Below the pieces are notes generated by a model. The model was not told where the DNA came from. It worked only from the letters and a program-made list of their open reading frames with translations, and did no database searches. Both the position numbers and the translations under genes were made by a program. From the NCBI GenBank assembly GCA_947034885.2, contig OX344754.2, positions 18,184,501-18,248,500 of the forward strand: a stretch of DNA of 64,000 nt. The letters run 5' to 3'. Numbering within the stretch: the stretch's first letter is position 1; each line of letters opens with the position of its first letter. This document shows, one piece after another, positions 5,985 to 63,301 of the stretch. The DNA is from Thuidium tamariscinum (lineage: Eukaryota; Streptophyta; Bryopsida; Hypnales; Thuidiaceae).

Positions 5985-6710
5985 TTTAATCTTGGAAGAA
6001 AGATTATTTAACTCTTTCAATCTCATTGGGAATAAAGACATTACAAAAAGTTTGCATGTTGCTTTTATTTTTAGAGAAGGAATTTTTAAGCCATCCCAAC
6101 AAGAGTGTATTTCTGAATAAAATTCTTTCAGAAGTTACTACGTATAAATAAATTGACCCCCACAAGAAAAATTCCATTTAATATTGGGAGATATGAAATA
6201 ATAAGCATATTTATAGAATATTGTATGAAAAAGAAGTCTAGAAATATTGTAAAATTATTTTTAAAATATTTTTTTAAAGGGACGGGGCTATCTTATCACA
6301 ACAAACCTTAGAATATATCCATGGCTTCTTAACATCTATGCATGTGAGCTAATCATACTCTGAATGTAAATCTTTGAAGTATATTTCCATTTATATTTGT
6401 AAATAGAAAAAAAACGAAATCTCAAATTCTATTTAAATTCTCTATTACCAATGAAAGTACCTAAAGATTTTATACCAAATTTTTGTTTTGTTTTTTGTAG
6501 ATTATTACTTGAGTGACATGCCTCTTCTAATATTGAAAAGTTTTAAAAGAATTTTCATTGTTTGTTTTTTAAATTTCCATTTTTTTTATGATGGAGATTT
6601 ATTAAAACTAGACATCAATGTTTGATTTTGATTAACCCATTAAGGACTGGTCAACCACTCCAATTCAGAGATCATTTGATTTCAAAAAATTTAGAGAAGA
6701 ATGCATTTAA

Positions 6711-7632
6711 CCCCTAAAGGACCAAGGCCTTTTTTCTGTCAAAAACCTCTCAAAACTGCCATTTCTGTTGCATTCATCCAAGAAAACAATTTTTTATTTA
6801 TTTTAAGAATCTAACCGTAGGATCTTGTACTTAACTAGATTGAGATCAAGTGGTAAAAATTTCATGAAGTTTGACCGTACAGATTGGAAGATATGAGCAT
6901 TCAAAGTTGGAAATACAAGTTTTTTTGAACTGTGGTTTGCAATTTCAGATGACTTTGACTGGAATTTGTATTAAAAAATTGTACTATAGACTTTGAATTT
7001 ATAATTTTTTGTGCTAAGAAATTGAGTTGAGAGTCTAGGATAAAAATTCACACAAAAAACACTTGATTTTCATTCTTTAAAAAATTGTTAAGTAGATGTA
7101 GGTCCAAGATTGAAAGAAAAATTAAATGGTTAATAACTCTAAGATGGGATTGAAATACAATAATCCCAATGGTGAGATTGTTCTAGAAAGTAAACATAAC
7201 CTTGTCCAACAATTTTTTTTGAAAAATTGTGAAAATTGCATTCAAAAATGAATCCTATAAGTTATTTTTTCAAGAAATTGTTTAGATTGCCCGAAAAACA
7301 AGATTGTCCATAACTTTCTCATTATAAGTCCAAATAGAGTGAATCAAAGCTTCACATGTAGGCAAAAATATATTATTTTAGAAAAATAAATTAAAAAATT
7401 AAATTTTGACTTTTTGCAAAAAAAAATTTCTGCCTGCTGAATGAAAATTTGGGCTTTTTGTGGTATAACTTTTGCTCCTAGTCACCAATTGAAATAAAAA
7501 TTATATTCCCATGAAGCTAATCAATTTTCCTATCTTATGAGAAAGTTTCAAAAATATTCATTAAAAATTGAGGTCTACGGAACCTGCCCGAACTCCAAAT
7601 TGTCCCCCGAGGGGACAATGGTCCTTTAGGGG
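6711..7632 (-). mobile_element. TTAA-flanked piggyBac-like short element, nested copy
   Basis: A 922-bp element with near-perfect ends CCCCTAAAGGACCA...TGGTCCTTTAGGGG, flanked by TTAA at 6707-6710 and 7633-7636. It is inserted in the outer element 6636-8938. The interior is AT-rich and aligns, in reversed orientation, with 53976-54921 and 9379-10312 over short stretches. No open frame is long enough for a transposase. This is the best-preserved termini pair of the family in the window. Confidence 0.85.
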
Positions 7633-7899
7633 TTAAAGTGTCTTCATATGTTTCTTAACAAAACCAATTTCAAGAGATTGTGTGCAAAAATGAATGAGTT
7701 GTGCTTGTCCAAAGTTGAAATGGCCTTGCCTTTCATATTGAAATTTTCAATGAGAAATGCATATTTAATGTATGTATATGTGTGAAGGAATTAGGTCAAA
7801 AGTTTTTGGTTGATTTCCGGACCATGTACTCAAATTTACATCCAATTGTAGTAAATCCTATGGAGCACTAGCGCCAAAGGGTGTTTACAACACATCAAT

Positions 7900-8523
7900 C
7901 CTAAAATTTTAGTTTGTGTGTAGGTATGGTTTTCAAAGACTTCATACCTACCCACAAACTAAAATTCCTCATAACTTTTGACTTATTAACCCTTAAGCGT
8001 CTCAATCCTTTTTTGAATTTTTGCACATTTTTGCTTATAGCTTTGTACAGATATATCATTTACTAGAATTTAATGAATTTGGTCATCAAGGAAGGTTTTC
8101 TTTTCTAGATTCAAGTATTACATTTGATAAATGAGAAGTTAATTGGATGAAACCGGGCCTTGAAGCCCTCTATTCATTGTCCAAAATATGGACGTCGGCG
8201 CGCTTTAGGGTTAATCCAAATAGAATGATTCAAAGCTTCCCATGTCTATATAAACCTAAATAATAAATTTTTAATTTTTAATTTAAAAAAAAATGTTTTT
8301 TGTAGAAGTTTTTTTGAATTGCCCAAGATGCCCAACAATTAAAGAAAACAACATATCATGCCATAACCATGTAATCAAAAGTTATGAAAATTGTGGGACC
8401 TAAGAGATACTCTTTGAGTACATATTGTATGAAAATTTTAAGGAAAAAAAATAAAAACTCCATTTGTAGTGAGCTGTCTAAAATTACTATATTGCCAAAA
8501 GACACAGTTTAAGGCTTTAGGGG
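7900..8523 (-). mobile_element. Partial TTAA-type piggyBac-like element, reversed and interrupted
   Basis: Its preserved end (GGCTTTAGGGG before TTAA at 8524-8527) lies inside the outer element 6636-8938. Reading from that end on the reverse strand, the sequence follows the left half of 53976-54921 (for example TTTTGGCAAC-type and AAAAGTTATG-type segments). The other end is not recognisable near 7900, so the copy is truncated or eroded. The small element 7990-8210 interrupts it at a TTAA. Confidence 0.6.
7990..8210. mobile_element. Small TTAA-flanked element (third nesting level)
   Basis: 221 bp with ends CCCTTAAGCG...CGCTTTAGGG and flanking TTAA at 7986-7989 and 8211-8214. Removing one TTAA and the insert restores the continuous family sequence of its host copy (…GACTTATTAA joined to TCCAAATAGAATGATTC…), which matches the uninterrupted version in sister copies. 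The termini resemble those of 60035-60568 more than the 0.9-kb copies, suggesting a subfamily. Confidence 0.75.
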
Positions 8524-9378
8524 TTAATAGTTTAGTTTTTTCTTCAATCTTAAACCAACCTCTACTTAACAATTTTTTGATAGGTGAAAAATTAAGTGTT
8601 TTTTTCTTGAATTTTTTTTCATGAATACTCAACTTGATTTTTCAGGATAAACAATTAGAAAATAGAAATCAATAGTGCAAAAATTTTAAACTAAAAAAAT
8701 TCAAAGCCAAAAAGTCGTGGCAAGTAAGTTGCAAAAAAACTTGTTTTCTTTAATTCAAATTTAAATATCTTACAATCTACATTGTCAAAGATTTTGAAAT
8801 TTCTTTTACACATTCATATACAAGTATAAAATCCTACATTTAGATGTGAAAAAAAATCTTAAAGTTTTTTTCTCTATGCAATAGAAATGACAATTTGGGA
8901 TGTTTTTAGATAGGAAAACTACCTTGGTCCCTTAGGGGTTAAGTTTTACACAACCTTTCATTTTCATGGAAACAAAAGAAAATTCTTTGAGAACCTATCA
9001 GACAATCAAATATACTTCTAGAAAGTGATTTTATACAAATCCTTGTCTACATATTTTTGGACATCAACTATTGAAAAGTAGAGCATACCATTCCTTTCTT
9101 TGTTAGTTGCATTTTCATTCTTGATTCCTATTGCTTCAGCCAAAACCAACCTCTTCATGATGCAATTCAATCACCTTTTGAGATATCAATGGACTTTCAC
9201 CCTTTCAAATTTCCACTTTTTGAAGAATTTTTTTTATAAATGCCTAGGAGTCTAATAAATACCTACTACTTTTTACTCCAAATTAATTCATAAAAAATTC
9301 AAACAAAATAATATCAAGCTGATCTTTCTTCCTCCAATTCTTTCTCCAAAAGGCTTATTTGCACAAACAACTACTTAG

Positions 9379-10312
9379 CCCCCTAAAAAGACCAAATTGT
9401 GTGTTTTGGCAACATGTCAATTTTTGCACCCCTTTATGAATGGAGTTTATATTTTATTTTTTGAATTTTTCACACAACATGTGTTCAAGGAGTATCTTTA
9501 AGGCCCAACAATTTTCATGACTTTTGATGACATAGTAAAAAAGCTATTGCATGATATGTGATTTTCTTTGATCTTTGAGCATCAAGGGCACCTCAAAAAA
9601 CTTCTTTAAAAAACACATTTGAAAAAATTAAAATATTAAATTTGTTAATTAAATTTATATCTATGTGGAAAGCTTTGAATCATTCCATTTTGATTAATGA
9701 GATGAAATTGGAGTAGTTTGTGAGTAGTTATGGAATCTCTACTCTACAAAAAAGTTTGAAATTTTTTTATTTAATTTGATTTCTAATATTTTTGAAAAAA
9801 TTCAGAATATTAGATGAAGATTGTTTATTAAAATATTACAACCATTGGGATTATCATTTTTCATTTCCATAATAATTTTTTTTTAATTTAGTATTTTGAA
9901 TCATTTTCTATTTTTTTCTACTTATTGTTTTTTTCCTATATGTTGTACAATTCCAAATGATTTGACATTTTTTTGAGCATATAACCAACTTGCATTGAAG
10001 AATAAATTCAAAGAGTAACCACCATTTTGAATTTTTTTTTCATACAAATGTGACCTTGTGAAACTATACTATTACTTGGGATTTTGTAGGGATAAACTGA
10101 AAAAAGAATTTTGTTTATTCAAATGTTACCACCTTGCAATCTATATAGTGGAAATTTCTGAAAGAAATTGCACGTCTTTTCAAACCACCTTACCACAAGA
10201 TCCTATGGTTATATGTGTCAAAAAATATTTAAAAAATAAATTTTGCACTTGTATTAGAAATTGTCGTTTGGGGAATGTTTTTGGTGAAAACATAGTCAAA
10301 AACCTTTAGGGG
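9379..10312 (+). mobile_element. TTAA-type piggyBac-like short element (right arm only)
   Basis: A 934-bp copy whose ends read CCCCCTAAAAAGACCAAA and AAAACCTTTAGGGG. The flanks are TTAG (9375-9378) and TTGA (10313-10316). The empty site in the left arm (around 2510-2520) reads ATTAAT on both strands, so the original target was TTAA and each flank has since changed by one base. This is direct evidence for a TTAA duplication and shows that the insertion is younger than, or selectively retained after, the inverted duplication. Confidence 0.8.
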
Positions 10313-11917
10313 TTGATATGACTTATGATAGCATAAAGACATAAATTTTTGTGGGAAGGTGAGGTAGTGTTATGTGATATATTATTGTACTTTCCTTTGA
10401 TTTCCCCTTGAGCATAACTTGACCGTGAAAATGGATTTGGTGGTTGGTAAGTTTTTCATGTTCCCCATCTTCCGTTGATTTCTTCTTCCCGAAGTCAGCG
10501 TCATCACTTTTTTTTGACAAAGTTACTTTAAAGTCAAGTCGGCATGCTATAAAGATGATCCCAGCAGCTTGTCGTTTCACAGTAGCTTGCCATTTGCAAG
10601 CTCAGGTGTGTCTTCCGATTGAGAGCTTTTTTCAATTCCTCTGGTTAGGGTCTACTGCAATTTTCTTGTGCAGTTTCTTGCTTGGATTCAAACGGTGTGT
10701 AATTGTCATGATTTCGTTTCAATTCTAACAGCTACAGAGCAACTCTCCTAACTTTGTAAAGCTTGTAATAAACTAATCCTCTTTGTATTCAGCTTTCTTT
10801 TAATTTTACAGACTTTGTATGCTGCATCTCTGTTTTGTAATGCTTTGTAATGCTGGCTTGGTTTTACAATTGTTTGTTTTTCAGCACGGTTTAGCTTTCT
10901 TTTCATTCTACAGCTTCATCGAGAGAGGTTCGGAGCATTCTTCCGGAGCAGGTGAATTTCTAAATAAGGCCTTGGATGCAAAAGTTAATTCTTTTCCCAT
11001 GATTGAGGTCTTGCTAAGTCTATGAGGACTGTTTGCAAGAATTTCTTCCTTCGCTTTGAAGAACAACTTCTTGTAGAGCTTTTTTCTTTTCATTTGCTGG
11101 TAGTACTTGGAGTTTTTTCAGTTTGTTTTCACCGCTTTTCATCTTTTTCCCCATCTCCGCCTTTTTTTCTTCTTTATTCAGTATTTGTTCTTCTTTTTTC
11201 CCAGGCATAAGACCAGTTCTTTTGGAGGTCATTTGCAATCTCTTGTGTGTTTAAATCAGCTCTTTTCCCCCAGCTCTTGGGAAGCTGCATTGACAGCTTA
11301 TGCCAGAGTTGGTTTGCAATTATTTGGTTTCCTTAGCTTGCTTTTTGTTCAATCTAGCTACAACTGGATCAACATGAACTTAAGAACACTGAAATTTGTT
11401 GAGGTAGGTTTCTAAAGATTCCCTTTTGAAAATGCTACATCAAATTAAAAAGTAAAGCAGCTAGTCATTCTTTTCACATACTTTTGGTCCTGTTAAGTGC
11501 CTTCGTTACGTACTTGATTTCTCAAGAACAACCTCAAGTAAAGCTTCTTTCATTAGCTGGTAATGTTTGTAAGCGGCATTAGTAGAAAGGAGTCCTGGGT
11601 TTCCTCGGTCGTCTAATCTTTTTTCCAGTGATTTCCAATCTCAAGCCCTAATCTGGCATTTGCTTACCAGTGAAATATCAGAAAAGTGCTGATACAGACA
11701 GAGAACTTTAGCTTTTTTGTCTACTTTAGCTTTTATCTGTCGCATGTTTGCGCTAGTGCTTCCCTCCCCTTGAGGCCATGATAAGTTAATATTTTCTTGT
11801 GAAAGTTCTTCATCAGCTGGTGTCAATAGTTTAAATTGTCAGATTGTGTTCGAGCTCCACAATTTTTATGTACTTTCCCTAAATTGAATGTGTGCTATCT
11901 CCGGCTTTAATTTCAGG

Positions 11918-12991
11918 ATGGCGGGGAGAAACACAGCGGCTGCCTTTCTCCTCATTCTTCAGATTTGGGAATCCCTCATCGATGGCAAGTACATGCAAGA
12001 AGCGTCCCAATACAAAACCCCGCGGTGCCCAACTTGCAAATCGTCCAAAGACTGCAACAACTACTTCTGCCTCCAGTGCAAGACTGGAGGCTTGTGTCCC
12101 GTAGTCTTCCGCAGAGACCATGAGCATCATCACCATCCCTGGTTGCAGGTGCGCCTCTTCACAAAACGATACTCTGTTCTCGCGAAGGATCTCGCGCACT
12201 TCATCAGCGAGGAGGGGTTGAAGCACATTCACACGATAGCAGACAAGCGGCATGGCGGGGAGAGGCATTGTAACCTGAGCAGCAAGAGCGGTGCGGAGTC
12301 CAGCAGTTCGTCCAACATCGCTCGAGCTCAGGCTCAAGTGCGGGCGGCGACAGGAAAGAAGCGTTGCCGAGGTTGTATGGCCAGCATCATCAGGTCACAG
12401 ATTCCAACAGGAACGTTTGCTGTGTGTTCGTTGCAGTGTTTGATAAAAGTTGCGATCGAGCGGAGGGAGTGGGATTTGTTGGCGATGAGAAGTGGTGTGA
12501 TGGAATTCATGAGCCCTCCACTCACGTACAGTGAGAAACTGTCAAGAGCACAACGCAAGCTCGACGTCACCCCAACAGCGAAACCCATAGACCGGCCTCC
12601 CCCATCGCCACAAGTTGCGACTGGAGATTCTCCAATGCTTGAAACTCATGAGATTGCAACAGCGACACCGGTAGTTGAGGCTCCCCCATTGCCGCAAGCG
12701 ACGGGAGATTTTTCGATGCTTGAATTCGACAAGGAGCTTTCAGAAGAAATCGAGGCTCTGACTCTCTCATTTGCACCGGTGAGCGACAGTGATCTAATGC
12801 TTGGTCCCCCTCTAGAACCATTCTTCGGTGAAGCTCTCCTGCTTCTACCAACGACCGAAGATTTCTCAGTGATTGAGCTCCCTGCGTGGCCTGCAGAGCC
12901 ACCCGAAGCTGAGACTCTCGCACTCCCACCGTCTGAATTTCAAGACTTCGACGACGACAGCAGTGAGTGGGCAGACATGTTATTTATTTAG
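11918..12991 (+). CDS. PLATZ-family zinc-binding transcription factor
   Basis: A plant-specific PLATZ protein of 357 residues in one coding exon; the family comprises zinc-dependent, A/T-rich-DNA-binding nuclear regulators. The start is the ATG right after ATTTCAG at 11911-11917, which looks like the acceptor of a 5' UTR intron; an in-frame ATG at 11888 lies before it. The first 170 residues hold the domain: CPTCKSS, NNYFCLQCKTGGLC, a His-rich DHEHHHHPWLQVR stretch and a distal CRGC...CSLQC pair. Compared with typical members, the first C..H ligand pair is C..C here and the usual C..C after FCL.C is degenerate (LCPVV). The C-terminal half is Pro/Glu/Leu-rich with a loose repeat (ATGDSPMLE, ATGDFSMLE, TTEDFSVIE) and an acidic tail (DFDDDSSEWADMLF) that could be an activation region (inference). 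A second copy begins at 229. Confidence 0.85.
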   Translation: MAGRNTAAAFLLILQIWESLIDGKYMQEASQYKTPRCPTCKSSKDCNNYFCLQCKTGGLCPVVFRRDHEHHHHPWLQVRLFTKRYSVLAKDLAHFISEEGLKHIHTIADKRHGGERHCNLSSKSGAESSSSSNIARAQAQVRAATGKKRCRGCMASIIRSQIPTGTFAVCSLQCLIKVAIERREWDLLAMRSGVMEFMSPPLTYSEKLSRAQRKLDVTPTAKPIDRPPPSPQVATGDSPMLETHEIATATPVVEAPPLPQATGDFSMLEFDKELSEEIEALTLSFAPVSDSDLMLGPPLEPFFGEALLLLPTTEDFSVIELPAWPAEPPEAETLALPPSEFQDFDDDSSEWADMLFI

Positions 12992-33479: not shown

Positions 33480-36400
33480 ATGGCAGAACAACCGCCTCGA
33501 AAGCCCAAAGTGCCGCGCAGGAAAGAGTTGGAAGAAAGTTACCGGTCCTTGGAAGCCGAAGCGGCCGCCCGGCATAGGAGGGAGGTAGAACTCTTCGAAG
33601 CTGCTGTACAGCAGTCCAAATCTGCACAGCAATCCAAATCTCAGGTTGCTGATGAGAAAAAACAGAGAGGCCCAATTTTGCATTCTTCACCAAGTGCCGA
33701 GTACCCTTTCGGATTCGACATGGAGGAGGACTTGTCACTTGTGAGGCCTCCGGATGCTGTCGGCATCAACGGCCTAAGCTCTGGAGTTACAAATTCAAGC
33801 TCCAGTGAACCTCCGAGGCCAACGTCACGGCGCTCTCTCTTTCAGGACGAGGAAAGTTTGAGTAATCCTGAGCTTTTCGCGCCACCGCCACCGGGATTGT
33901 TTTCTCCACTGCCATCTGAATTGTCACCACCACAGGAATTCTCAAAACCACAAGATTTCTCACAACTACAGGAACTGTTTACCCCCACCCCGACACAGGA
34001 ATTCTTTACTTCACAGCCACAGGAGTTCTTGACTCCATCCCCGACAGAGGAATTATTTCCCTCACAGTCACAGGAATTCTTGACTCCACCCTCGACGCAG
34101 GAATTGCTTACTTCACAGTCACAGGAATTCTTGAATCCACCCCCGACGCAGGGATTGTTTACTCCAAGGCCACAGGAATTCTTGAATCCATCCCCGACAC
34201 AGGAATTGTTTACTCCACGGCCACAGGAATTGCTCACTCCACCAGCGGAGAAAGTTATAGAAGTGGAACATTCCTCTTCACATGATGAGAAGCCTTCCTC
34301 CCAGAAGCTGTATCTGCTATTCAGTGGCCTGACCTACACTGTATGTAAAAAGCTTTCCCGATGGCAGAGGTTCAAACGAGCGGTGTTGCCAGGCAAATCT
34401 ACGCACCCGCTGCCAAAGCCGCTGCGGTTGCTGGGCGGAATCTCAGGGGAGGCCCGAGATGGTGAGATTCTGGCCATCATGGGACCCAGCGGCTCCGGTA
34501 AATCCACCCTCATTGATGCACTTGCGCAGCGGATCAATTCTGTGAAAGGCACCATGACGTTGAACGGCAGTCAGCTCAGCGAGAGATTGATGCGCAACAT
34601 CTCCGCTTACGTTATGCAGGCATGAATTAAACACAACAATGCATGATGTTTTGCAGACATGCTAGTTACTGCCCGAGGTTTCTAAAAAGCTCATTTGAAG
34701 GAAAAGCACTCCTGATTTAAACCCTAAAAAAATTATCACTCTGAATTAAATCCATGAAAATTCTCGTCAAGACCTAATTTGATCGAGAAAATTCCAGGAC
34801 GACTTAATTGATCCAAAAAATCCATGCGAAGTACAGTTGAGACTAATAAGTTGCACACTGAAATTGGTCTGACAGGACGATCTCCTCTACCCGATGCTTA
34901 CCGTGAAAGAGACTCTCATGTTCTCAGCCTTCTTTCGGCTGCCGCCATCTCAATCGAAGGCGTCCAAAGTGGCCAGGGTGAACAATTTGCTGGATCAACT
35001 CGGCCTGCTGCGCGTTGCGAATACCATCATCGGCAATGAAGGTCGTCGCGGCGTCTCAGGAGGTGAGAGACGCCGTGTCTCCATTGGCATCGACATTGTT
35101 CACGACCCGCTCATCTTGTTCCTGGACGAGCCGACATCGGGACTGGATTCAACTAGCGCGTATTTGGTCGTAAGTTGAAAATCTCTTCCACTTCCATTTC
35201 TTCGAAACTCTCATTCCAGCTACATTCGACACTTTATTCTTCTGATTGTTATTCTCGCACACTCCCTTCCCCTTCAATTCTTCAAAATTCCTTCCCAACA
35301 ATCATTCTAGCTACGAAACCCTAACTCTCTACAATTCTCATCACCCTCATTCTATAAAGTTCCGGTCACCCTCATTCATTAAAAATTCCGATCACCCTCA
35401 TTTTTTACAATTGTGATCAACCGTTCTTTTCAACTCTTATAACCAATCCGTTGCAATTATGATCACCCTCGTTCTTTACAATTCTGATCACCTTAGCTCA
35501 TTCTTAACAATTCTGATCATCCTCAATCACACTAATTCGTTGAAATTTTCCAATTCTGACGACCCAACCAGGTGCGCACCCTCCAAAAAATTGCGCAGAC
35601 AGGAAGCTTGGTGGTGCTGTCCATTCATCAACCGAGCTACCGTATCATGGGTCTGTTCGACCGCTTGATCATCCTGGCGTTCGGGGAGAAAGTGTACGGA
35701 GGCCCGGCCACCGAACTCAACCTGTTCTTCGAGGAATTCGGCCGCCCCGTTCCGAAACATGAGAACAGCACCGAACACGCCTTGGATCTCATCCAGGAGC
35801 TTCATGGATCACAAGTAATTTTCTCCATTTACCCACATCCTAACAACAATGCCCGTTTCCTCATCAGCCTAATTTAAACCCAAAGAAAACCTCAATTTTG
35901 TCATCAACCTTCATCAACCCTAATAGCAATCCTCATTTCCTCAAGCATCCAATTTCAACCCGATGGAAACTTCTCATCAACCTTCCTAATCAGCCAGTCT
36001 TCATAACAGTAAGCAATGCACTATTCATGTCTATGAAGCTCACGCATGTAGGCAGATTATTTCCCCTCAACCCAATTAATTCAATTTCTCAGCCCTGAAA
36101 TGTCACTCTTAGTCCTCTGGGGTGTCACAGGGTTAAGGTTGAAGGATCTCAAATTGTTGGCCTTCTAATTTTTCATGTGTTACTAATATGACCTTAAATT
36201 CTCATTATGGAATTGCGGGAGATTGCGAGAGATTTTCATGAATGCACAAAATTGTCCCTCTTTCTATTACCAATGGGAATTCTCCTCCGGAACGTGTGCA
36301 GGAAGGAATCAAGCCCCTGGTGGAGTTTTGCAAGGAGTGGGAGGCAAAATCAAAAACCCCGGCACCAATACAGGAAGAGTTTCGCGACACTGGAGCCACA

Positions 36401-43520: not shown

Positions 43521-44643
43521 AGTATCTCGCATGTAGGTCAAAATGAGTGGCTTACTTAGGGTAGCTTTTCATCTCTGTAGTGTAGTTTTCGAATGAGCAG
43601 CAGGTATTTGTGTGCGGCGTCGAGGTCAATCTTGTTTCTGGGGAAGGAAGATGAGCATACTATCTTGTAGGTTGTTGGGGTTAAGTTTTGACACGCCATA
43701 GCGATGTGAATGTATCGTGGGACTTGGGTGGAATGTAAGTGTTGCCTACTGCGGTTGGGGCAACCAGAATCGCTACTTTTGTTCTTGCGGCTAATCTTAG
43801 TTCTTATTGGGCTGGTCTTTTTCTTACATGTTCTTGTTGGTAAGCGGATTCCAGTGGACCAAGAAATGCGTCTTTTGAATCCTGGACCTTAAAAACTAAG
43901 GTGAAATGGATTTTTGGGTAAATGATGAAATTCGCCATTCATATCAGATTTTGATTTGGTCTGTGTCCTTTCTAGAAGTATAATACTACTGTAAAATATA
44001 TACCCTGAAAAATTGCACATGCAAATGGTAGCCAATGGATGACTTTCAAGATCACTATAGAAATGAAGAAAGAACCTATGGGAGGTAGCAACACCTCAAC
44101 CCTTGAAGGATTTTGGAGACCTAAGTGTTTGATGGATGATATCTATCTAAATCTTTAATTTTTTTTTTTCTTCTAAACTTCATATCCTAGGTTTGGGCCT
44201 CTAGTATGGAGATAAGATTAAAAGAGTCTCTTGAAATTCCAAGTTTCATAGTAAATTTGTAAAGTGACATCTTGATCATGTTTTGTTTTAATCTTGGAAT
44301 GTTGTGGTGGGTTAGTGAGGAAATCATGAATTTGAAATCGTAGGAATCATTGGTATTAAAAAAACCCTAAAGAATTAATTTGAAGTCAAACTATAGTAAT
44401 AGGTTAATCTTTTCCATCCTTAGGTGAATAGTTGTAATTGTGTCCTATATAGAAGAATGCCTTGGTATTAAAAAAAAGACTATACAATAATGTAAGAAAA
44501 ATGAATTGTGCTCCTTCTAGGAAATACTATTGATTTATATTGCTTGTATAGGTCAGTTTCAAGAGTTTGTACCAAAATAGTTTACTTTTTGCATTTCAAC
44601 CATTTGGTAGACATATAGGAATTTTTCTATTTTCGACTCTTTA
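43521..44643. other. Threonine synthase 3' flank and intergenic DNA
   Basis: Presumed 3' UTR in the first few hundred bases, then AT-rich sequence without a recognised gene. Confidence 0.4.
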
Positions 44644-47455
44644 CACTACTAGAATTGGGGGGTATATATGATTGCAATGAATGACTGATGTATGATTGAT
44701 TATCCAGTTTGACTCAAAAAATGATTAATACTTCTATAATTGCACCAATGTTTGTTTTACAGTATTTTCAAGTCATTTTCAAGTCATTTTTTGCTACTCA
44801 AGGATGAAGACCTTATAGAGAGGGATAGTCACAATGGACATTCATTGAAATTGGAATGCAAGGAACGGGGGAGAACCTTCTTGGATGCCCTAGTCATGAA
44901 TTAGTCATTGATTGCAACTGATCTTTACTATTTTGCATCTTAAATACTCCCTCCGTCCCAAAATGATCTTCTTGTTGGCCTTAATTTTTTGTCCCAAAAT
45001 GATCTTCTTGTCGCCTTTCGTAACATGAAAATTTGTCAAATTTGGATTTTAATTCTTCTCCAAGACTAGCAAAACAACTTTAAGCAATAATTTCCCTTCC
45101 ATTCATAAAATCATCAATCAAAAGACAAAAGAAATGACTAAAGGGGTTAATCAACACTTTTTGTTTGTATTTTTTGCATCTCTTTGAGTGTTGCCTACTT
45201 GAAGGAGGTGAAGCTTTGGTAGGTGGAACAAAGGTTCACACATGGTCTTAGGCCCATACTAATCACCCACAAAACAACAACCTCAAATTCAAAATTTAAG
45301 TGTCCATTGGTGCTTTTTGAAAATGCCTCTTAAATTCTACTTTTCTATATTCTAAAATTACACTTTGGAGAAGGCTTTTAAAACTCAAAGTTTCAAAGAT
45401 ACTAAGAGTGAACCAAGCTTTGCTTACAAATCCAAAGAGGACTTTAAAATGTTATTTTTGACCTTAATTCATAATATTTTGTTAAATAGAAAGATCATTT
45501 TGGGACGGAGGTAGTATAACTTTAGGATCTTTGGGTGGCCCCATTGCAATTTTTTTTAAAAGATGGATAGGGCAACATGCTGACATGGATGGCAGTTGTA
45601 CTAATATTACTAGAATGTCACTGCATATTACTAATTTACTATAGCATGACTTCAAAATGACTGCAACATCTTTTTTGTTTGGAAAGTAAGTTTTAGAGTT
45701 TGAATTGGTGAAGCTTTTTGCTAAATTGGAGGTTAGTCATTGTAGGGTGACTAAACTGCAACTACCACAATTTAAGAAAATGATACAAAGCAATGGGACC
45801 TCACAAGCGGATTTAAAGTGGCTTCAAAGCATTGTTTCTTCATTGCAATTACTGATTTGGAGGGATCATCTTCTCACCTCAACAACAATATGCTGAGGTA
45901 TTTTCAATATAGTTTTAAACATCATAATTTACATTAGATATGCTTGGTTATGAATCAACTCGTGAGTGTGCTAAATTAGAAGATGTAAGACAACTAAAAC
46001 ATCTCATACAAAGTACAATTCTATTGCATTTATGCTAACTAATAATCTTCTAGTTGACAACTACAATTGCATATGCAATTTAGGATTTTCTAACACTTAC
46101 ACTCTAATATCATTCTTGATTTAATAAGTTCTTTCTAATTTTTCTACTCTTTATTTATCTTTTTCACTTAAAAAAAATATTTTTTTCAATTGCATACTTC
46201 TTTTGTCTTTTAAAAAAAAATGATGCATTGCTAGTGGGCTTTCTTTTTGTTGGTGTATATTATTTTTTTCCTTGGGGTCCATTTGTATGATTTATTTAAA
46301 CTTCCATTGGCATGCCAACAATGAATTTAAGAAGTTTGCACCATTGTCATTGCACTATTTTTTATTACTTCATTTGATTCACATTTGAATTACTAAGGAT
46401 CTTAATAAATTTACATTAAAGTATTCAAATAGACCTAATGCTCAATCTAATGGTAGTTGTTGAATCCCATTTCTCCCTTATACAAATGATAACATTGCTA
46501 CTCTAGTTTCATTAAAGAATGACTTCCTGTGACTACTAAATGACTTCTTATGACTACTAAATGAGTGCTCAAAAGTTTCAAACTATTGCACAACTACTCC
46601 ACTACTACTTTGGCATGTTGTGCATTATCATTCATTGTGCTATTTGCAAACATCTTATACATCAATTGTTGCACTTTTCTTGCAGGAAGTGAGGAAACTT
46701 GACACAACTATATATATATTTGTTTGGAAGAAATCAACTATAGATGATCTTTGTATTCTTCTTGTACCAATCATTTTTTAAACCTTTTAACAAATTTGTT
46801 TATAATCTTGATGAGAGGCTTGAAATCTAAAATGAATTTTTGGAGATGAAAGTGAGTTTGATTTCCCAACTTTCATAAGTTGAAAGTTTTTTGCAAAAAA
46901 TTAATCTACTATACCTTAATTAGATCTAAAATTTTACTTAAAATACAATTCCTGGGTTTTATATATCCCACATGGTTTGTTTTGTTTTTCCTTCTACTAT
47001 TCCACTCCTATAAAGAGCTTCTAATTTCATCTCTTGATACTTACACATTAAATGCTTTTGAAAGCAATGTGACACTTGTGTCAAATATGATGTATAGTGT
47101 ATGTTATATTGTATATAGTGTTTAATTATGTATGGTATATTGTGTATGGTATTTAATTATGTATGGCATATGATTTATTGTATATGGTAAATCATTGTGA
47201 CACTTTGAATGTGCTTATATAACTTTAGGATGACTAAAGAGTTACTTGCCACATGTCAATCCATTTAGAGAATGCAAAGATTCCATCATGACTAAAAAAT
47301 AACTCTTTAAGTGCACTTACATGTTAGATTGATCAAATTGCTCCTAACAATATGGCAACTACAAAGTGACTTCAAAATGACTCTGTAAATGCACTTATAT
47401 ATTAGACTTGTTAGATTGTGGCATTGTGCACTGATAGTATTGCAACTACTAGAGT
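44644..47455 (+). mobile_element. CACTA (En/Spm-like) non-autonomous element, right end missing
   Basis: Begins CACTACTAGAATTGGGGGG after TTA. It matches the reverse strand of 56763-59499 over most of its length: terminal region, the 45550-45650 block, and 46560-47450 against 57090-58250. Many AATGACT/AGTCATT motifs near the end are typical CACTA subterminal repeats. Homology stops near 47455 without the expected opposite terminus. A Stowaway element (44947-45514) is inserted in it. Open frames at 45705 and 46880 are not recognisable as transposase. Confidence 0.7.
44947..45514. mobile_element. Stowaway-type MITE
   Basis: The termini CTCCCTCCGTCCCAAAAT and ATTTTGGGACGGAGGTAG are the classical plant Stowaway ends and are flanked by TA at 44945-44946 and 45515-45516. 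It is 568 bp. The left end holds a second, direct copy of TCCCAAAATGATCTTCTTGT about 36 bp inward. It is mobilised in trans by Tc1/mariner transposases in the plants studied. Confidence 0.92.
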
Positions 47456-52099: not shown

Positions 52100-55000
52100 A
52101 GGCTTGCCAAATAGCAACCCTAGTATAGACACTTTGAAAAAATGCCATGCCATTTGGTCTTAGCAATGCCCTAGCCATCTTTCAACATTTGATGAATGAC
52201 ATATTTTAAGAATTTTAGGATGATTTTATTGTATGTTACTTAGACAATATTTTGATCTTTTTAAAGAATGAAGAAGATCACAAAAAACATATTCGATTGG
52301 TTTTGGAGAAGCTATGGAATGTTGGATTATATGTCAAATTAGAAAAATGCATGTTCTACCAATTCCAAGTTGAATTCCTAGGTTACATCATTTCGGAAGA
52401 GGGTCTATCGATGGACTTGAAGAAGATCTAGACAATTACCGATTGGAAAAACCAGCAACTATTCGAGACATTCAATGTTTCCTCAGTTTTGCAAATTTCT
52501 ATCAAATTTTTATCAATAATTATTCCAAGATTGTTGCTCTATTGACAAGATTCACTTGCAAGGATAAGCTCGAGTAGAGTGCAGAAGCAGATCATGCGTT
52601 TGAGCCCTCAAAAAGGTGTTTACAATAGTGCCAATCTTGACACATTCAGATTTTGAGAAGCCATTCTTCCTCAAAAGCAATGGTTCTGATTTTGCCCTTG
52701 GAGCAATTCTCTTACAATTTAATGAAGACAAACATCTCCATCCTATCGTATGTCATTTGCAAAAATTCACAATTGCGAAAATCAACTATGAAATTCACGA
52801 TGAAGAGTTGCTTGCCATTGTCGACTCATTCCAAGAGTGGTGACATTTCTTAGAATGAGTTCAACATTCAATAATGGTCTATACAAACCTCAAGAACCTT
52901 GAGTATTTTATATCTACAAAGATTTTTGAATCGATGACAAGTTAGGTGGAGTATATCATTGTTGCACTTCAACTTTGTCACCACCTATCATCTTGAGACT
53001 CAACAAATCTGGTCTGATGCTCTATCTAGAAGAGCATGTACCTTGCACCAAACAAGGGAGATGCAACTTATGATCAGCAACGGTCTACCCTACTCAAACT
53101 TGAGCAAATTGAATACAAGACTATGCACAATCACACATTATAACTTTGATGAATGTAGCGTTTTTCTAAGAAATTCATGTAAGTCTTCAATATGATCCTT
53201 TGGTTTTGAAATTCAAAAGCCATTCTATTATTCACAATTATAGAGGGATCCAAACTTTGAACCCTCAAGTCCCTGATTCAATGATTGTAGATTCGGAATC
53301 CCCGAATCAAACCATTCCTAGTTTACAAATCCATAGATCATGAAGAGGTGAAATGCTCTAAGATGATACTGATCCAAGATTTGAGTTTCTTGATGGGCTC
53401 TTGTATTATGAAGGACTACTTTATGCCCTAGAAGGCCCATATCAACTTTGAGTGCTCTAGTCTTGACACGATTTTCCATCGGCGGGACATTTCGGCTTCA
53501 ACAAAAAGATTGAGCTTATATCAAGAAATTTATGGTGGATATAAATGTAGAAGTCTATAAAAGAATACATCACAACATGTGATACCTACTTAAGATTCAA
53601 GATTCCTTGACATAAGTCGTATGGATTACTACAACCACATCCAATTCCAAAAAAGCCATGATCTTCAATTTCTATGAACTTCATTATTAATCTACCTATT
53701 TTTGAAGACTTTGACTCTACCTTTATAGTGGTTGATCAATTGACCAAAATGATAAATTTTATGCCATGCAACAAGACAGTGACTAGCAAAGAAACTACAC
53801 GATTGTTTATCAACAATGTGTACAAATATCATGGACTTTCTAACGACATCATCTCTAATCATGGTATACAATTTACTTTCAAGGTTTGGCAATTATTATT
53901 CAAGATTTTACAAGTAGAGATCAAATTGTCTTTGGTATATCATCGTCAAATAGATGGTCAAATAGAAAGAGTTAACCCCTAAAGGACCAAACTGCATTTT
54001 TTGGCAACATAGCGATTTTAGGCAGTTCACTATGGATGGATTTTTTATTTTTTTTCTTTGAAATTTTCACACCACATGTGCCCAAGGAGTAGCTTTAAGG
54101 CCTAACAATTTTCATGACTTTTGACTACATGGTCAAAAAGTTATGACATGATATATTGTTTCCTTTGTTTGGCAGGTAACCTAGGCAGAAAAAAAAACTT
54201 CTTCAAAAATTATTTTCTTAAGAAATTAAAATTTGAAATTTATTTCTTTGATTTATATCTAAGTGGGAAGCTTTGAATCATTCCATTTTGATTAATGAGT
54301 CAAAAGTTATGAAGACTTTTAGTTTGAGGTAGTCTGTGACTAGTTATAGAATCTCTATACTACAAAAAAAAGTTTGAAATTCATTAATTAATTTAATTTT
54401 TAATATTTTTGAAAAAAACAAAAGCATTGGGTGTATATTATTATTCACAAGAGTACAACCATTGGGATTGTCCTCTTTCAACTCTATAAATAAATTGTTA
54501 ATAATTTAGTATTTTGGCTTATTTTCTATTTCTAACTATTTACTATTTTTTTCCTATATGTTGTACAATTCCAAATGATCTAAAAATTTTCAAGCATGTA
54601 GCCAACTTTTCTTGAAGAATGAATCCAAAGAGTTACAATAATTTTGAACATTTTTCCATACAAATATGATCTTCTGAAGTGCAGTTGCCCGGATTTTTGC
54701 AGTGGTAAAAATTTGATTTTTGTCACTTCAAACATTGATATCTTGCAATCTACATGGCGGAAATTTCTGAAATTTTTTCCACATCTTTTTAAGCTTGTGT
54801 TCTAAAATATCCTATGGTTAATTTTGTCTAAAATTGTTTTTTTCTTAAAATTTGGTAGTTGTCTAAGAAATGACAGTTTTGAAGCAATTTTGGTGAAAAC
54901 ATTGTCAAAAACCTTTAGGGGTTAAGCAAGTGTTGGAGCAATATTTTTTATTCTTTATCAACTATGGCTACCATCTAAGATTGAACCAATTCAATTTCAA

Positions 55001-56762: not shown

Positions 56763-57991
56763 CACTATTAGAAATGGGGGGTATAAATGACTTCAAAGAA
56801 TGACTGCAGCAGAGTCATTTAGGACAAAAATGACGTGACTTGGGCCCCTAGAGTCATTGTGGACAAATCATTCTTTAAATGACTCTAATCTTATTATTAC
56901 TAATGACTTCAGACTTGGATGAAAGAGTCTACGTGGCACATGAAGTTTTAATTAAAAAATTCTTAAAAGTTTGGGCTGCTGCCCTTTTTTAGTAGAATTT
57001 TCTGGTGACCCTTCCACGTCACCTAATTTTGTAGTTGTGGGGCAATCAACCAAGCCTAACGTCATTGTCCATGTCAGAGTCATTTAGTAGTTGTATAGTA
57101 GTTGCAATACTGTCAGTGACAGTCTGACAAGTCTAACATGTAAGTGCATTTACAAAGTCATTGTGAAGTCACTATGTAGTTGTGATAATGTTAGTGAATA
57201 GTTTGACTAGTCTGACATGTCAGTACATTTACAAAGTCATTTTTAAGTCACTGGGCAATTGTGATAATGTCAATGAGTAATCTGACTAGTCTAACATGTC
57301 AATACATTTAAGAAGTTCTTTTTTAATCATGATGGAGTCTTTGCATTTTGTGAATGGATTGACATGACTATGGCAAGTCATTTTATAGTCATCCTAAAGT
57401 TACATATAAGCACATTCAAAGTAGTACAATGATTTACCATATACAATATGCCATACACAACAAATCATATGCCATACATAATTATACACCATACACAATA
57501 TGCCATACATAATAAAAAATCATACAATACACTATACACCATACATCATACTTGATACATGTGTCACATGACTTCTTAAAGCATTTAGTGTGTGAGTATC
57601 AAGAGATGAATTGAGAAGCTCTTTAAATAGGATTGAGATAGTAGAAGGCAAGACAAACCATTTGGGATATGTAAAATGCAGGAATTGTATTTCAAGTAAA
57701 ATTTCAGACCTAATTAAGGCATAGTAGATTAACTTTTTGCAAAAAAATTTCAACTAATGAAAGTTGGTAAATTAGTCTCACTTTCATCTCCAAAAATACG
57801 TTTTAGATTTTAAGCCTCTAATCAAAAGTTATAAACAAATTTGCTAAAAGGTTTAAAAAAGGATTGGTATAGGAAGAATGCAAGGGTCACCTATAGTTGA
57901 CTTCCTCCAAACAAGGATATACATAGTTGTATTAAATTTCCTTACTTCATGCAAGAAAAGTGCAACAATTGATGTATAAAATGTTTGCAAG

Positions 57992-58153
57992 CACTAGAAG
58001 AAAGTTTGAAGCCTTTAACGTGACTTCAACACAATCTAGATGATGTTTTGCGTTGACTGCAATACAAAATTTGCAAATTTGCGTTGTAGTCAACACAAAA
58101 TATCATCTTGATTGTGTTGAAGTTATGTTAAAGGCTTCAACCTTTTTTTAGTG
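57992..58153. mobile_element. CACTA-ended foldback MITE nested in the larger CACTA element
   Basis: 162 bp from CACTAGAAGAAAG to CTTTTTTTAGTG, flanked by the 3-bp repeat AAG (57989-57991, 58154-58156). Nearly the whole element folds back on itself (AAGCCTTTAACGTGACTTCA pairs with TGAAGTTATGTTAAAGGCTT) around a short loop. The sister element at about 46640-46655 lacks it. Confidence 0.8.
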
Positions 58154-58465
58154 AAGTAAGACAATGAAATGATGAATTATAATGCACAACATGCCAAAGT
58201 AATAGTGGAGTAGTTGTGCAATAGTTCGAACTTTTGAGAAGTCATTTAGTAGTCATAGAAAGTCATTCTTTAGTGAAACTTGAGTAGCAATGTTGTCATT
58301 TATATAAGGGAAAAATAGAACTTAATAAGTGTCATTAGGTTGAGTACTAGATCCATCTGAATACTTTAGTGTAACTTTATTGAGACCCTTTAGTTAGTAA
58401 TTCAAATGTGAATCAAATGAAGTGTTCAAAAGTAGTGCAATGATAATGATACAAATTTTTACAAT

Positions 58466-58696
58466 TCATTGTTGGCAAATCAATAGGAGTTTAAATAAAC
58501 CATACTGATGTATCCAACATGTCAAAGTATCCAACAAATAAAAAAAAACCTTGTGCCACCACTTGTGACTTCTCATTTGATAAGAATAGTTTCTTCTCAA
58601 TTGATCAACGATGTCCACACCTCTCATAAATTCCGTGTAGCCTTTGGAAATTGGTAACATTTCCAACTCTACAACCTCTTTGTTGATTCTTCACGG
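58466..58696 (-). pseudogene. piggyBac-type DDE transposase fragment
   Basis: An open stretch of about 77 codons on the minus strand, preceded by an in-frame TGA. It reads INKEVVELEMLPISKGYTEF, then MRGVDIVDQLRRNYSYQ and HKWWHKVFFYLLD. This is the hallmark end of the DDE_Tnp_1_7 (piggyBac) catalytic domain, including the GVDxxDQ aspartates and the KWW..FF.LLD helix. The first two catalytic regions and the Cys-rich C-terminus are not found nearby, so it is a remnant. It lies within the CACTA-ended element, and the sister copy at 46260 shares the flanking bases but not this block. Confidence 0.85.
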
Positions 58697-60034: not shown

Positions 60035-60568
60035 CCCCTAAGCACTCAGACGACCACTTTTTGGTTGCTACCCAACTTCGGGCAGAATTTTCAGGCAAAA
60101 AAAACTTTTTTCAAATTTTTTTTTTCAGTTTTGAAAAAATTGGGTTTTTTTTCAATATTTATATTCAAAACTAAGATCAGTACGGTCAAACAAAAATTAT
60201 AAAAGATATAGCACAAAAGGTTTAGAATTGCATAGTGTTGAAAAACTTACTATTTTGGAAAAGTGTTGATGGTCTCATTACTAGATCATTTGCATTTTTT
60301 CATAAATCAATAGAAACCACAATTTTGACCAATAAAAAAAGAATTCATACACTAAATAAAAAAATTGTATTTTTGGTGAATTTTGAAGTTATATCTTTGA
60401 AATTCATTTGAAGAGAATCTAAAAATAATTTCAAAATTTTGACCATACAAATATTTTTTACATTTTGTGCTTCACATTATCTTCTTTGATACTAACTTCA
60501 AAAAGGTTACATAACTTACATTTTATAATACATTTGTGTTTTGTCCTAACCCCTTGGGCTTTTAGGGG
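60035..60568. mobile_element. TTAA-flanked piggyBac-like element, divergent subfamily
   Basis: 534 bp, ends CCCCTAAGCACTCAGACG and GGGCTTTTAGGGG, flanked by TTAA at 60031-60034 and 60569-60572. A paralogous stretch at about 59700-59725 (AAGTTTTGAATTCTAATTAGC) has no insert at the same place. The interior does not follow the 0.9-kb copies beyond the ends. Confidence 0.75.
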
Positions 60569-62385: not shown

Positions 62386-63301
62386 CCCCTAAAGGACCAA
62401 CATGCCTTTTTTGGCAACATAACTATTTCGGGCAGGTACGTGTGGCTAGAGATTTCCATATTTTGGGACCAAATTTTAATAGAAGGTGTGGACGAGGAAT
62501 ATCTTCAAAGCCCAATAATTTTCGTGACTTTTGACTACATGGTTAAAAAGTTATCGCATGATATGTTGTTTATTTCTCAACTCGGGCAGTTTGGGCAGAT
62601 TAGAAAAAATCATTTTTTTAGAAAATAAAAATTTGAAATTGGTTTAATAGATTTATATATACATGGAAAGCTTTGAATCATTCCATTTGGACTAATGAGT
62701 CAAAAGTTATAGAGAGTTTTAGTTTGCGGGTAGTTATAGATTCCCTACTCTAAAATAAACTTTGAAGTCCTTTATTTTACTCAATTTTCAATATTTTTGG
62801 AAAAAAATAAAAACATTGGATGTAGGTTGTTTATTACAACATTTGAACCGTTGGGATTGGCAAGTTTCAATTTCACAAATTTTTTTAAAACTATTTTGAA
62901 TCATTCTCTACTTCTTTTTACTTACTATTTTTTTTCTATATGTTGTCCAATTCCAAATGATTTGAAATTTTTTGAGCATGTAGCCAACTTGCCTTGGAGA
63001 ATGAATCCAAAGAAGCACTACCATTTGGACTCTTTTCATGCAAATGTGAGCTTATAAAGTGCAGCTGCCCGTATTTTTACAGTGATAAAAAAAGGATTTT
63101 TGTAACTTCAAACACTAATATCTTGTAATTCACGCGGTAAAAAATTTTGAAATTTTTTCCTTGTCTTTTCAAACCTAAATACTACAAGATCCTATGGTTA
63201 TATGTGTCCAAAAACAATATTTTCCGAATATTTGATACTTGTGTTAGAAATGGCTGTTTTGGAGGGGTTTTGGTGAAAACATAGTCAAAGAACTTTAGGG
63301 G
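62386..63301 (+). mobile_element. piggyBac-like short element with TTAT flanks
   Basis: A 916-bp copy with ends CCCCTAAAGGACCAACATG and AAGAACTTTAGGGG. It has the same order of internal blocks as 53976-54921. The flanks are TTAT on both sides (62382-62385 and 63302-63305) instead of TTAA, so the duplication seems to have used a variant target. Confidence 0.85.

Follow-up and report, generated by a model that had tools for sequence, protein, structure and literature searches.

Transposons of the piggyBac type are known chiefly from animals, along with some other eukaryotes, and their bat relative piggyBat is a recently active family with non-autonomous copies, smaller than the elements described below and also from an animal host. 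An animal piggyBac measures 2472 bp, and rare non-TTAA targets exist among animal piggyBacs (PMC10813416); in the element of Trichoplusia ni, one end has at bp 17-33 a palindromic repeat to which a dimer of the cysteine-rich domain binds (PMC7351741). Here we analyze elements of this kind in a stretch of 64,000 nucleotides from the moss Thuidium tamariscinum (contig OX344754.2 of assembly GCA_947034885.2, positions 18,184,501 to 18,248,500; hereafter, the window). The window is part of contig C6 in an assembly that totals 363 Mb in 19 contigs. It is very probable that the short elements of the window belong to the piggyBac superfamily as non-autonomous members residing in the nuclear genome of a land plant, most likely copied in trans by the DDE_Tnp_1_7 transposases of elements of about 5 kb. 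Together, the complete elements and these miniature inverted-repeat transposable elements (MITEs) are new members of the superfamily in an unusual host.

The initial annotation of the window held that piggyBac elements are seldom described in land plants; they are not unheard of there. A 2023 review lists PiggyBac among seven MITE superfamilies of angiosperms (PMC10004981), a repeat table for the fern Ceratopteris gives 1,230 PiggyBac copies covering 122 kb (PMC6890710), and another source tabulates PiggyBac among the superfamilies present in every taxonomic group that it covered (PMC4438587). These angiosperm and fern entries carry the same superfamily label as the moss elements; in the accessible parts of the two sources, they come with neither a transposase frame nor target-site evidence. 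In the moss, there are open transposase frames, autonomous copies at a reported 100% identity, and empty sites. A 2008 paper put the number of other cut-and-paste superfamilies then described from plants at only five (PMC2528002). A survey of MITEs in 207 plant genomes, published in 2025, does without piggyBac in its main text (PMC12550479), and the accessible parts of two liverwort genome papers do not mention it (PMC9985172, PMC12885004). The animal piggyBac is an imported tool in rice, and its test in Physcomitrium patens was still ahead in 2017 (PMC5505980). Our searches of open-licence papers, some of which were listed only in part, found no paper on native moss piggyBac elements, although one may exist; one candidate, PMC10619864, concerns the word 'piggybacking'.

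The genome encodes transposases of the expected type. Searching with the Pfam family PF13843 (DDE_Tnp_1_7) yielded at least 116 scored matches among 658 candidates genome-wide, with a best E-value of 5.7e-80. In six loci picked for their long frames, all six frames lie between convergent TTAACCC ends that are 4.9-5.6 kb apart; the transposase frames are open over 969-1214 codons, stop to stop, and for each of them PF13843 is the sole Pfam family matched at E up to 0.001. Two further loci, picked for one already known end, have the same layout, so that all eight fetched elements have CCC-starting ends. The same association appears when transposase matches are sampled more broadly: in the 3' windows of 40 of the 116 matches, TTAACCC is found in the expected orientation in 27, in the wrong orientation in 2, and as the reversed motif in 4, and among 20 further places from a search with the protein P0001 (85 matches), it is in the expected orientation in 14 and in the wrong one in 4. 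The initial annotation had proposed looking for a full-length element with the ends of the window elements and a DDE_Tnp_1_7 gene; such elements exist between TTAACCC ends, with termini that are related to those of the window elements rather than exact copies.

One of these proteins, P0001, matches the piggyBat structure (9c0f), the closest solved sequence, with E 1.6e-32 over query residues 91-483, and the T. ni piggyBac structure (6x67/6x68) with E 9.2e-25; the likeness to piggyBat is one of protein. When P0001 is aligned to 9c0f and 6x67, its three aspartate motifs fall in aligned positions, and we take these aspartates to be the catalytic ones. A motif script found all three motifs in five of the six frames, and the first motif of L041, which the script missed, is visible as CDEIM. 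By eye, all six frames carry Cys/His-rich C-terminal tails, which contain no separate Pfam domain and gave no significant phmmer match. The moss elements share with T. ni piggyBac the DDE_Tnp_1_7-type core with its aligned aspartate motifs, the TTAA target and the CCC-starting terminal repeats; the Cys/His-rich tail and, in some elements, a palindromic repeat just inside one end may be further parallels. They differ in their divergent sequence, in the long N-terminal parts of their frames, in their length (4.9-5.6 kb, compared to about 2.5 kb) and in having a land plant as host. In one subgroup of the transposases, the match is broken into two pieces with about 200-290 bp between them (G000:C1:29087748-29089343, C1:35248188-35249783, C6:27519561-27521219, C2:20164864-20166435), which may reflect an intron in the transposase gene.

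The ends of the short elements are abundant and strongly associated with TTAA. The 14-mer CCCCTAAAGGACCA occurs exactly 5,028 times genome-wide (2,564 plus 2,464), compared to a single occurrence of the reversed-pattern control, and TTAA directly precedes 4,488 of the 5,028 (89%); the initial annotation had suggested counting these flanks across the genome, and the count bears it out. We paired ends by script in a sample consisting of the first 30 of these places, all on C1, some of which are the two ends of one element. Of the 15 distinct pairs obtained, 13 are bordered left and right by an identical 4-mer (TTAA in 12, TTAT in 1). Two of the TTAA/TTAA pairs exceed 960 bp in length and are probably composite; excluding them, the same 4-mer flanks 11 of 13. 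TTAT is duplicated on both sides of the window element 62386-63301 and of L011, showing that targets other than TTAA are used occasionally. The initial annotation had named other target duplications as evidence that would count against its reading; these two are such cases, as a minority.

For a similarity comparison, we used 17 elements, leaving out the two probable composites and one composite pair from the window. Fifteen of them are 916-946 bp long (one window element being measured from its third base) and the others 696 and 785 bp, making the main non-autonomous family long for a MITE. The 60 best pairwise pieces among the 17 are 71-96% identical. The 39 best other copies of the window element 53976-54921, from 40 scored of 10,540 candidates, match it at 86-90% identity along most of its length. 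For a second family, of 221 bp, a one-end pattern gave 163 matches in the genome and the reversed control none. As for calling these elements MITEs, they have no coding similarity to the six transposase frames and their ends number in the thousands; the ends of the autonomous elements examined are related to theirs but not identical.

Within the window, TTAACCCCTAAAGG with up to three mismatches occurs 20 times against 6.3 expected, a number reached in none of 100 shuffles. We count eight elements: five with TTAA at either side, one whose two flanks are TTAT, one between TTAG and TTGA, and an interrupted copy with a single recognizable end. The initial annotation had claimed at least eight elements of a MITE family with CCCCTAAAGG-type inverted ends and TTAA flanks; its count of ends stands, whereas TTAA is present on both sides in only five of the eight, one element has a TTAT duplication, and two belong to other families with related ends. 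A ninth candidate at 44100-45146 (TCAA/TTAA) was left out of the count, as its similarity extends to at most 22 bases.

Four of the eight form a nest. The outer non-autonomous element spans 6636-8938, between TTAA at 6632-6635 and at 8939-8942, and in its right part (8528-8938) it matches the end of the full element L013 at 72% identity. Its pieces 6636-6706 and most of 7637-7934 have no significant match to full elements, and we treat 6636-8938 as a single element because of its outer ends and its empty site. Inserted in it, with TTAA on both sides, is a 922-bp element (6711-7632) that shares 96% identity with a C1 copy (L022) and carries the palindrome ATTGTCCCCTCGGGGGACAAT directly inside the terminal repeat of its right end. 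The interrupted copy is of the 53976 type and spans 7935-8523 (left limit approximate), with TTAA at 8524-8527; only its terminal ~354 bp are recognizable, split by a 221-bp MITE of the second family (7990-8210; ends CCCTTAAGCG and CCCTAAAGCG, TTAA on both sides). Beyond the nest lie an old 934-bp copy at 9379-10312 (flanks TTAG at 9375-9378 and TTGA at 10313-10316), the 946-bp element 53976-54921 with TTAA on both sides, a 534-bp element at 60035-60568 with ends CCCCTAAGCA and CCCCTAAAAG and TTAA on both sides, and the 916-bp element 62386-63301 with its non-canonical TTAT. The 534-bp element is weakly related to the main family, with a best similarity of 74% across 54 bases.

Empty sites were preserved for two of these insertions in the opposite arm of a palindrome. 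Opposite 9375-10316 the left arm reads ACTAATTAATATGACT, and opposite 6632-8942 it reads TTTTGATTAAGTTT, each with one TTAA, at 2513-2516 and 2944-2947, respectively (coordinates counted by hand from the sequence). Both empty sites had been reported by the initial annotation and are real, and because both are found in the opposite arm, the nest is bounded as had been proposed. Because the empty site matching 9379-10312 has TTAA, we read the TTAG and TTGA flanks of that element as decayed TTAA.

Some ends contain an internal palindrome, judged here against shuffles that kept base composition only. Among the autonomous elements, the 5' ends of L043, L044, and L110 have palindromes at bp 14-36 that were equalled by 1 of 200 shuffles each, and that of L111 was equalled by 7 of 200; none of the eight 3' ends has a palindrome better than chance. 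A GTCCC-GGGAC-type palindrome is present at one end only in 6 of the 17 MITEs (L011, L013, the second copy of L022, L024, L029, and 6711-7632), where 0-3 of 200 shuffles were as good, and the first copy of L022 is a seventh case with 14 of 200. The position of these palindromes is suggestive of a parallel with the internal repeat of animal piggyBac.

By homology with the animal systems, a DDE_Tnp_1_7 transposase supplied in trans by the autonomous elements of about 5 kb in the same genome would copy the MITEs. It would bring the two ends into synapsis and cut via TTAA hairpin intermediates, and the excised element would enter a new TTAA; the C-terminal cysteine-rich tail may read the palindrome at bp 14-36 of those ends that have it. 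Among the autonomous elements examined, L110 is nearest to the MITE end CCCCTAAAGGACC: its 3' end agrees at 12 of 13 bases, its 5' end at 11 of 13. The L110 protein is 71% identical to P0001, and the transposase clade of these two has ends that are mostly CCCC(T/A)(A/G)AA(T/C)GACC. The main MITE family is likely mobilized in trans by this clade, or else by an extinct or unfound relative.

Several observations weigh against this interpretation. None of the autonomous elements examined, in 60 3' windows and eight full loci, has the exact MITE end CCCCTAAAGGACC, and among the transposase 3' windows, 13 in the set of 40 and 6 in the set of 20 lack a TTAACCC end. Among the exact CCCCTAAAGGACCA ends, 11% lack TTAA, some of these being TTAT duplications. 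The interiors of the MITEs have no detectable similarity to the six transposase frames (best E 0.30), leaving the idea that they are deletion derivatives of transposase genes unsupported, and when they were compared with the complete elements, the matches were, judging by their positions, to neighboring MITEs only. In half of the eight autonomous elements (L039, with 33 of 200 shuffles, L040, L041, and L042), the palindromes are at chance level, and most MITE ends, including those of the 53976-54921 group, have no palindrome beyond chance.

Other candidates for an autonomous partner were set aside. The convergent pairs of MITE ends about 7 kb apart at L085 and L086 contain no 200-codon frame and no tblastn match to the six transposases, and their interiors hold MITEs. 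L085 holds a pair of ~925-bp elements that belong to one subtype, are oppositely oriented and lie about 5 kb from each other; the pair in L086 belongs to different subtypes, at a distance of about 5.6 kb. MITE ends with a last base other than A were found at 292 places, 100 of them listed, and the three that we compared by eye pair with listed ends at MITE spacing. Matches of L042, L082, and L095 to MITEs read as neighboring or interrupted MITEs, not common subterminal sequence.

Could the window elements belong to a different superfamily, such as PIF/Harbinger with its 3-bp TWA duplications, so that part of the TTAA is really element end? Both TTA and TAA are contained in TTAA, and the 207-genome survey classifies plant MITEs in its main text without piggyBac (PMC12550479). 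Such an origin is nevertheless very improbable in our judgment, given that the empty sites have a single TTAA, that complete elements bounded by ends of this type carry a DDE_Tnp_1_7 gene, and that in one autonomous family TTAA flanks all 11 copies. We saw no partner from another superfamily, although no search was aimed at the transposases of other superfamilies. We give next to no credence to contamination of the assembly by an animal, fungus, or oomycete as the source of the elements, a view that the mainly animal distribution of piggyBac might otherwise favor: element matches are found on all ten contigs C1-C10, one autonomous copy (L128) adjoins an apparent MITE end, and both C1 and C2 carry autonomous copies as well as chalcone synthase genes. 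One single-exon chalcone-synthase-like gene gave no match at a strict cut-off of 1e-150. A second gene is identical to PDB 9jl6, a chalcone synthase, at 309 of 333 positions and scores 694 bits with 9jl6, 6dx7, and 9kah, compared to 550 for the next kind of enzyme; 6dx7 is a protein of the moss Physcomitrium patens, and the gene suggests a moss host. The assignment to piggyBac, first made by the initial annotation, is supported by TTAA targets, CCC-starting ends, empty sites, and DDE_Tnp_1_7 elements alike.

One autonomous family appears to have moved recently. The 5,088-bp element at L039, whose open transposase frame has 1023 codons, has 11 full-length matches, itself included, at a reported (rounded) identity of 100%, with bit scores of 9176 in eight copies and 9172, 9172, and 9167 in the other three; the next-best match is partial, at 70%. 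The 11 copies are located on C1, C2, C5, C8, and C9 in both orientations, each with TTAA on both sides and at different sites, and in blastn searches with E up to 1e-3, no 250-bp flank of one site resembles the flank of another. At L130, the left and right flanks of a copy are 84% similar to each other, placing it inside a local repeat, and the copy at L128 sits at a TTAA bordering an apparent MITE end. Eleven copies at ~100% identity in different TTAA sites point to very recent cut-and-paste transposition. At a plant substitution rate near 7e-9 per site per year, this identity would correspond to an age on the order of ten thousand years.

The copies rest on a single assembly without reads, gene conversion can homogenize copies, and no empty allele of the 11 sites was found among the fetched loci, where we looked for one; they might therefore have arisen by segmental duplication or gene conversion, or be an assembly artefact. 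With flanks that differ between sites, TTAA on both sides of all 11, and a distribution over five contigs in both orientations, we regard this as improbable compared to recent transposition. Judging from sequence, the odds tilt slightly toward a land plant whose endogenous piggyBac lineage, accompanied by thousands of non-autonomous copies, is still jumping, which would make it the first well-documented active endogenous piggyBac of plants.

At L128 (G000:C2:19453299-19453578), L090, and L106, different piggyBac-type elements seem to adjoin at a common TTAA, in the arrangement GGG(G)-TTAA-CCC, as if the TTAA at the edge of one element had been reused as a target.

The window also contains two large inverted duplications and several genes. 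Positions 1-2768 are duplicated in inverted orientation at 9121-12146; complementarity is 99% for the outer 610-bp arms (1-610 and 11537-12146) and 82-99% for the remaining blocks listed, and the right arm extends into a frame of 367 codons (11888-12991) without a Pfam match. The second inverted repeat pairs 46275-47419 with 57075-58515 (74-88% complementary), and the ~10 kb between its arms includes the element 53976-54921. Six frames of the window were compared with Pfam, of which two gave no match and four matched families of a pyridoxal phosphate (PLP)-dependent enzyme, an ABC transporter ATPase, an ABC-2 membrane part, and a mannosidase/glucosaminidase Ig-like domain. A 51-bp tandem repeat at 33959-34264 lies in the Pro/Gln/Ser-rich N-terminal part of an ABC-transporter-like gene frame.

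If these interpretations are correct, a native and recently active piggyBac in a land plant would be an endogenous source of TTAA-specific insertion, and whether moss piggyBac was inherited vertically or acquired by horizontal transfer would become a question. Surveys of plant MITEs that are built on five superfamilies may then misfile piggyBac elements or miss them.

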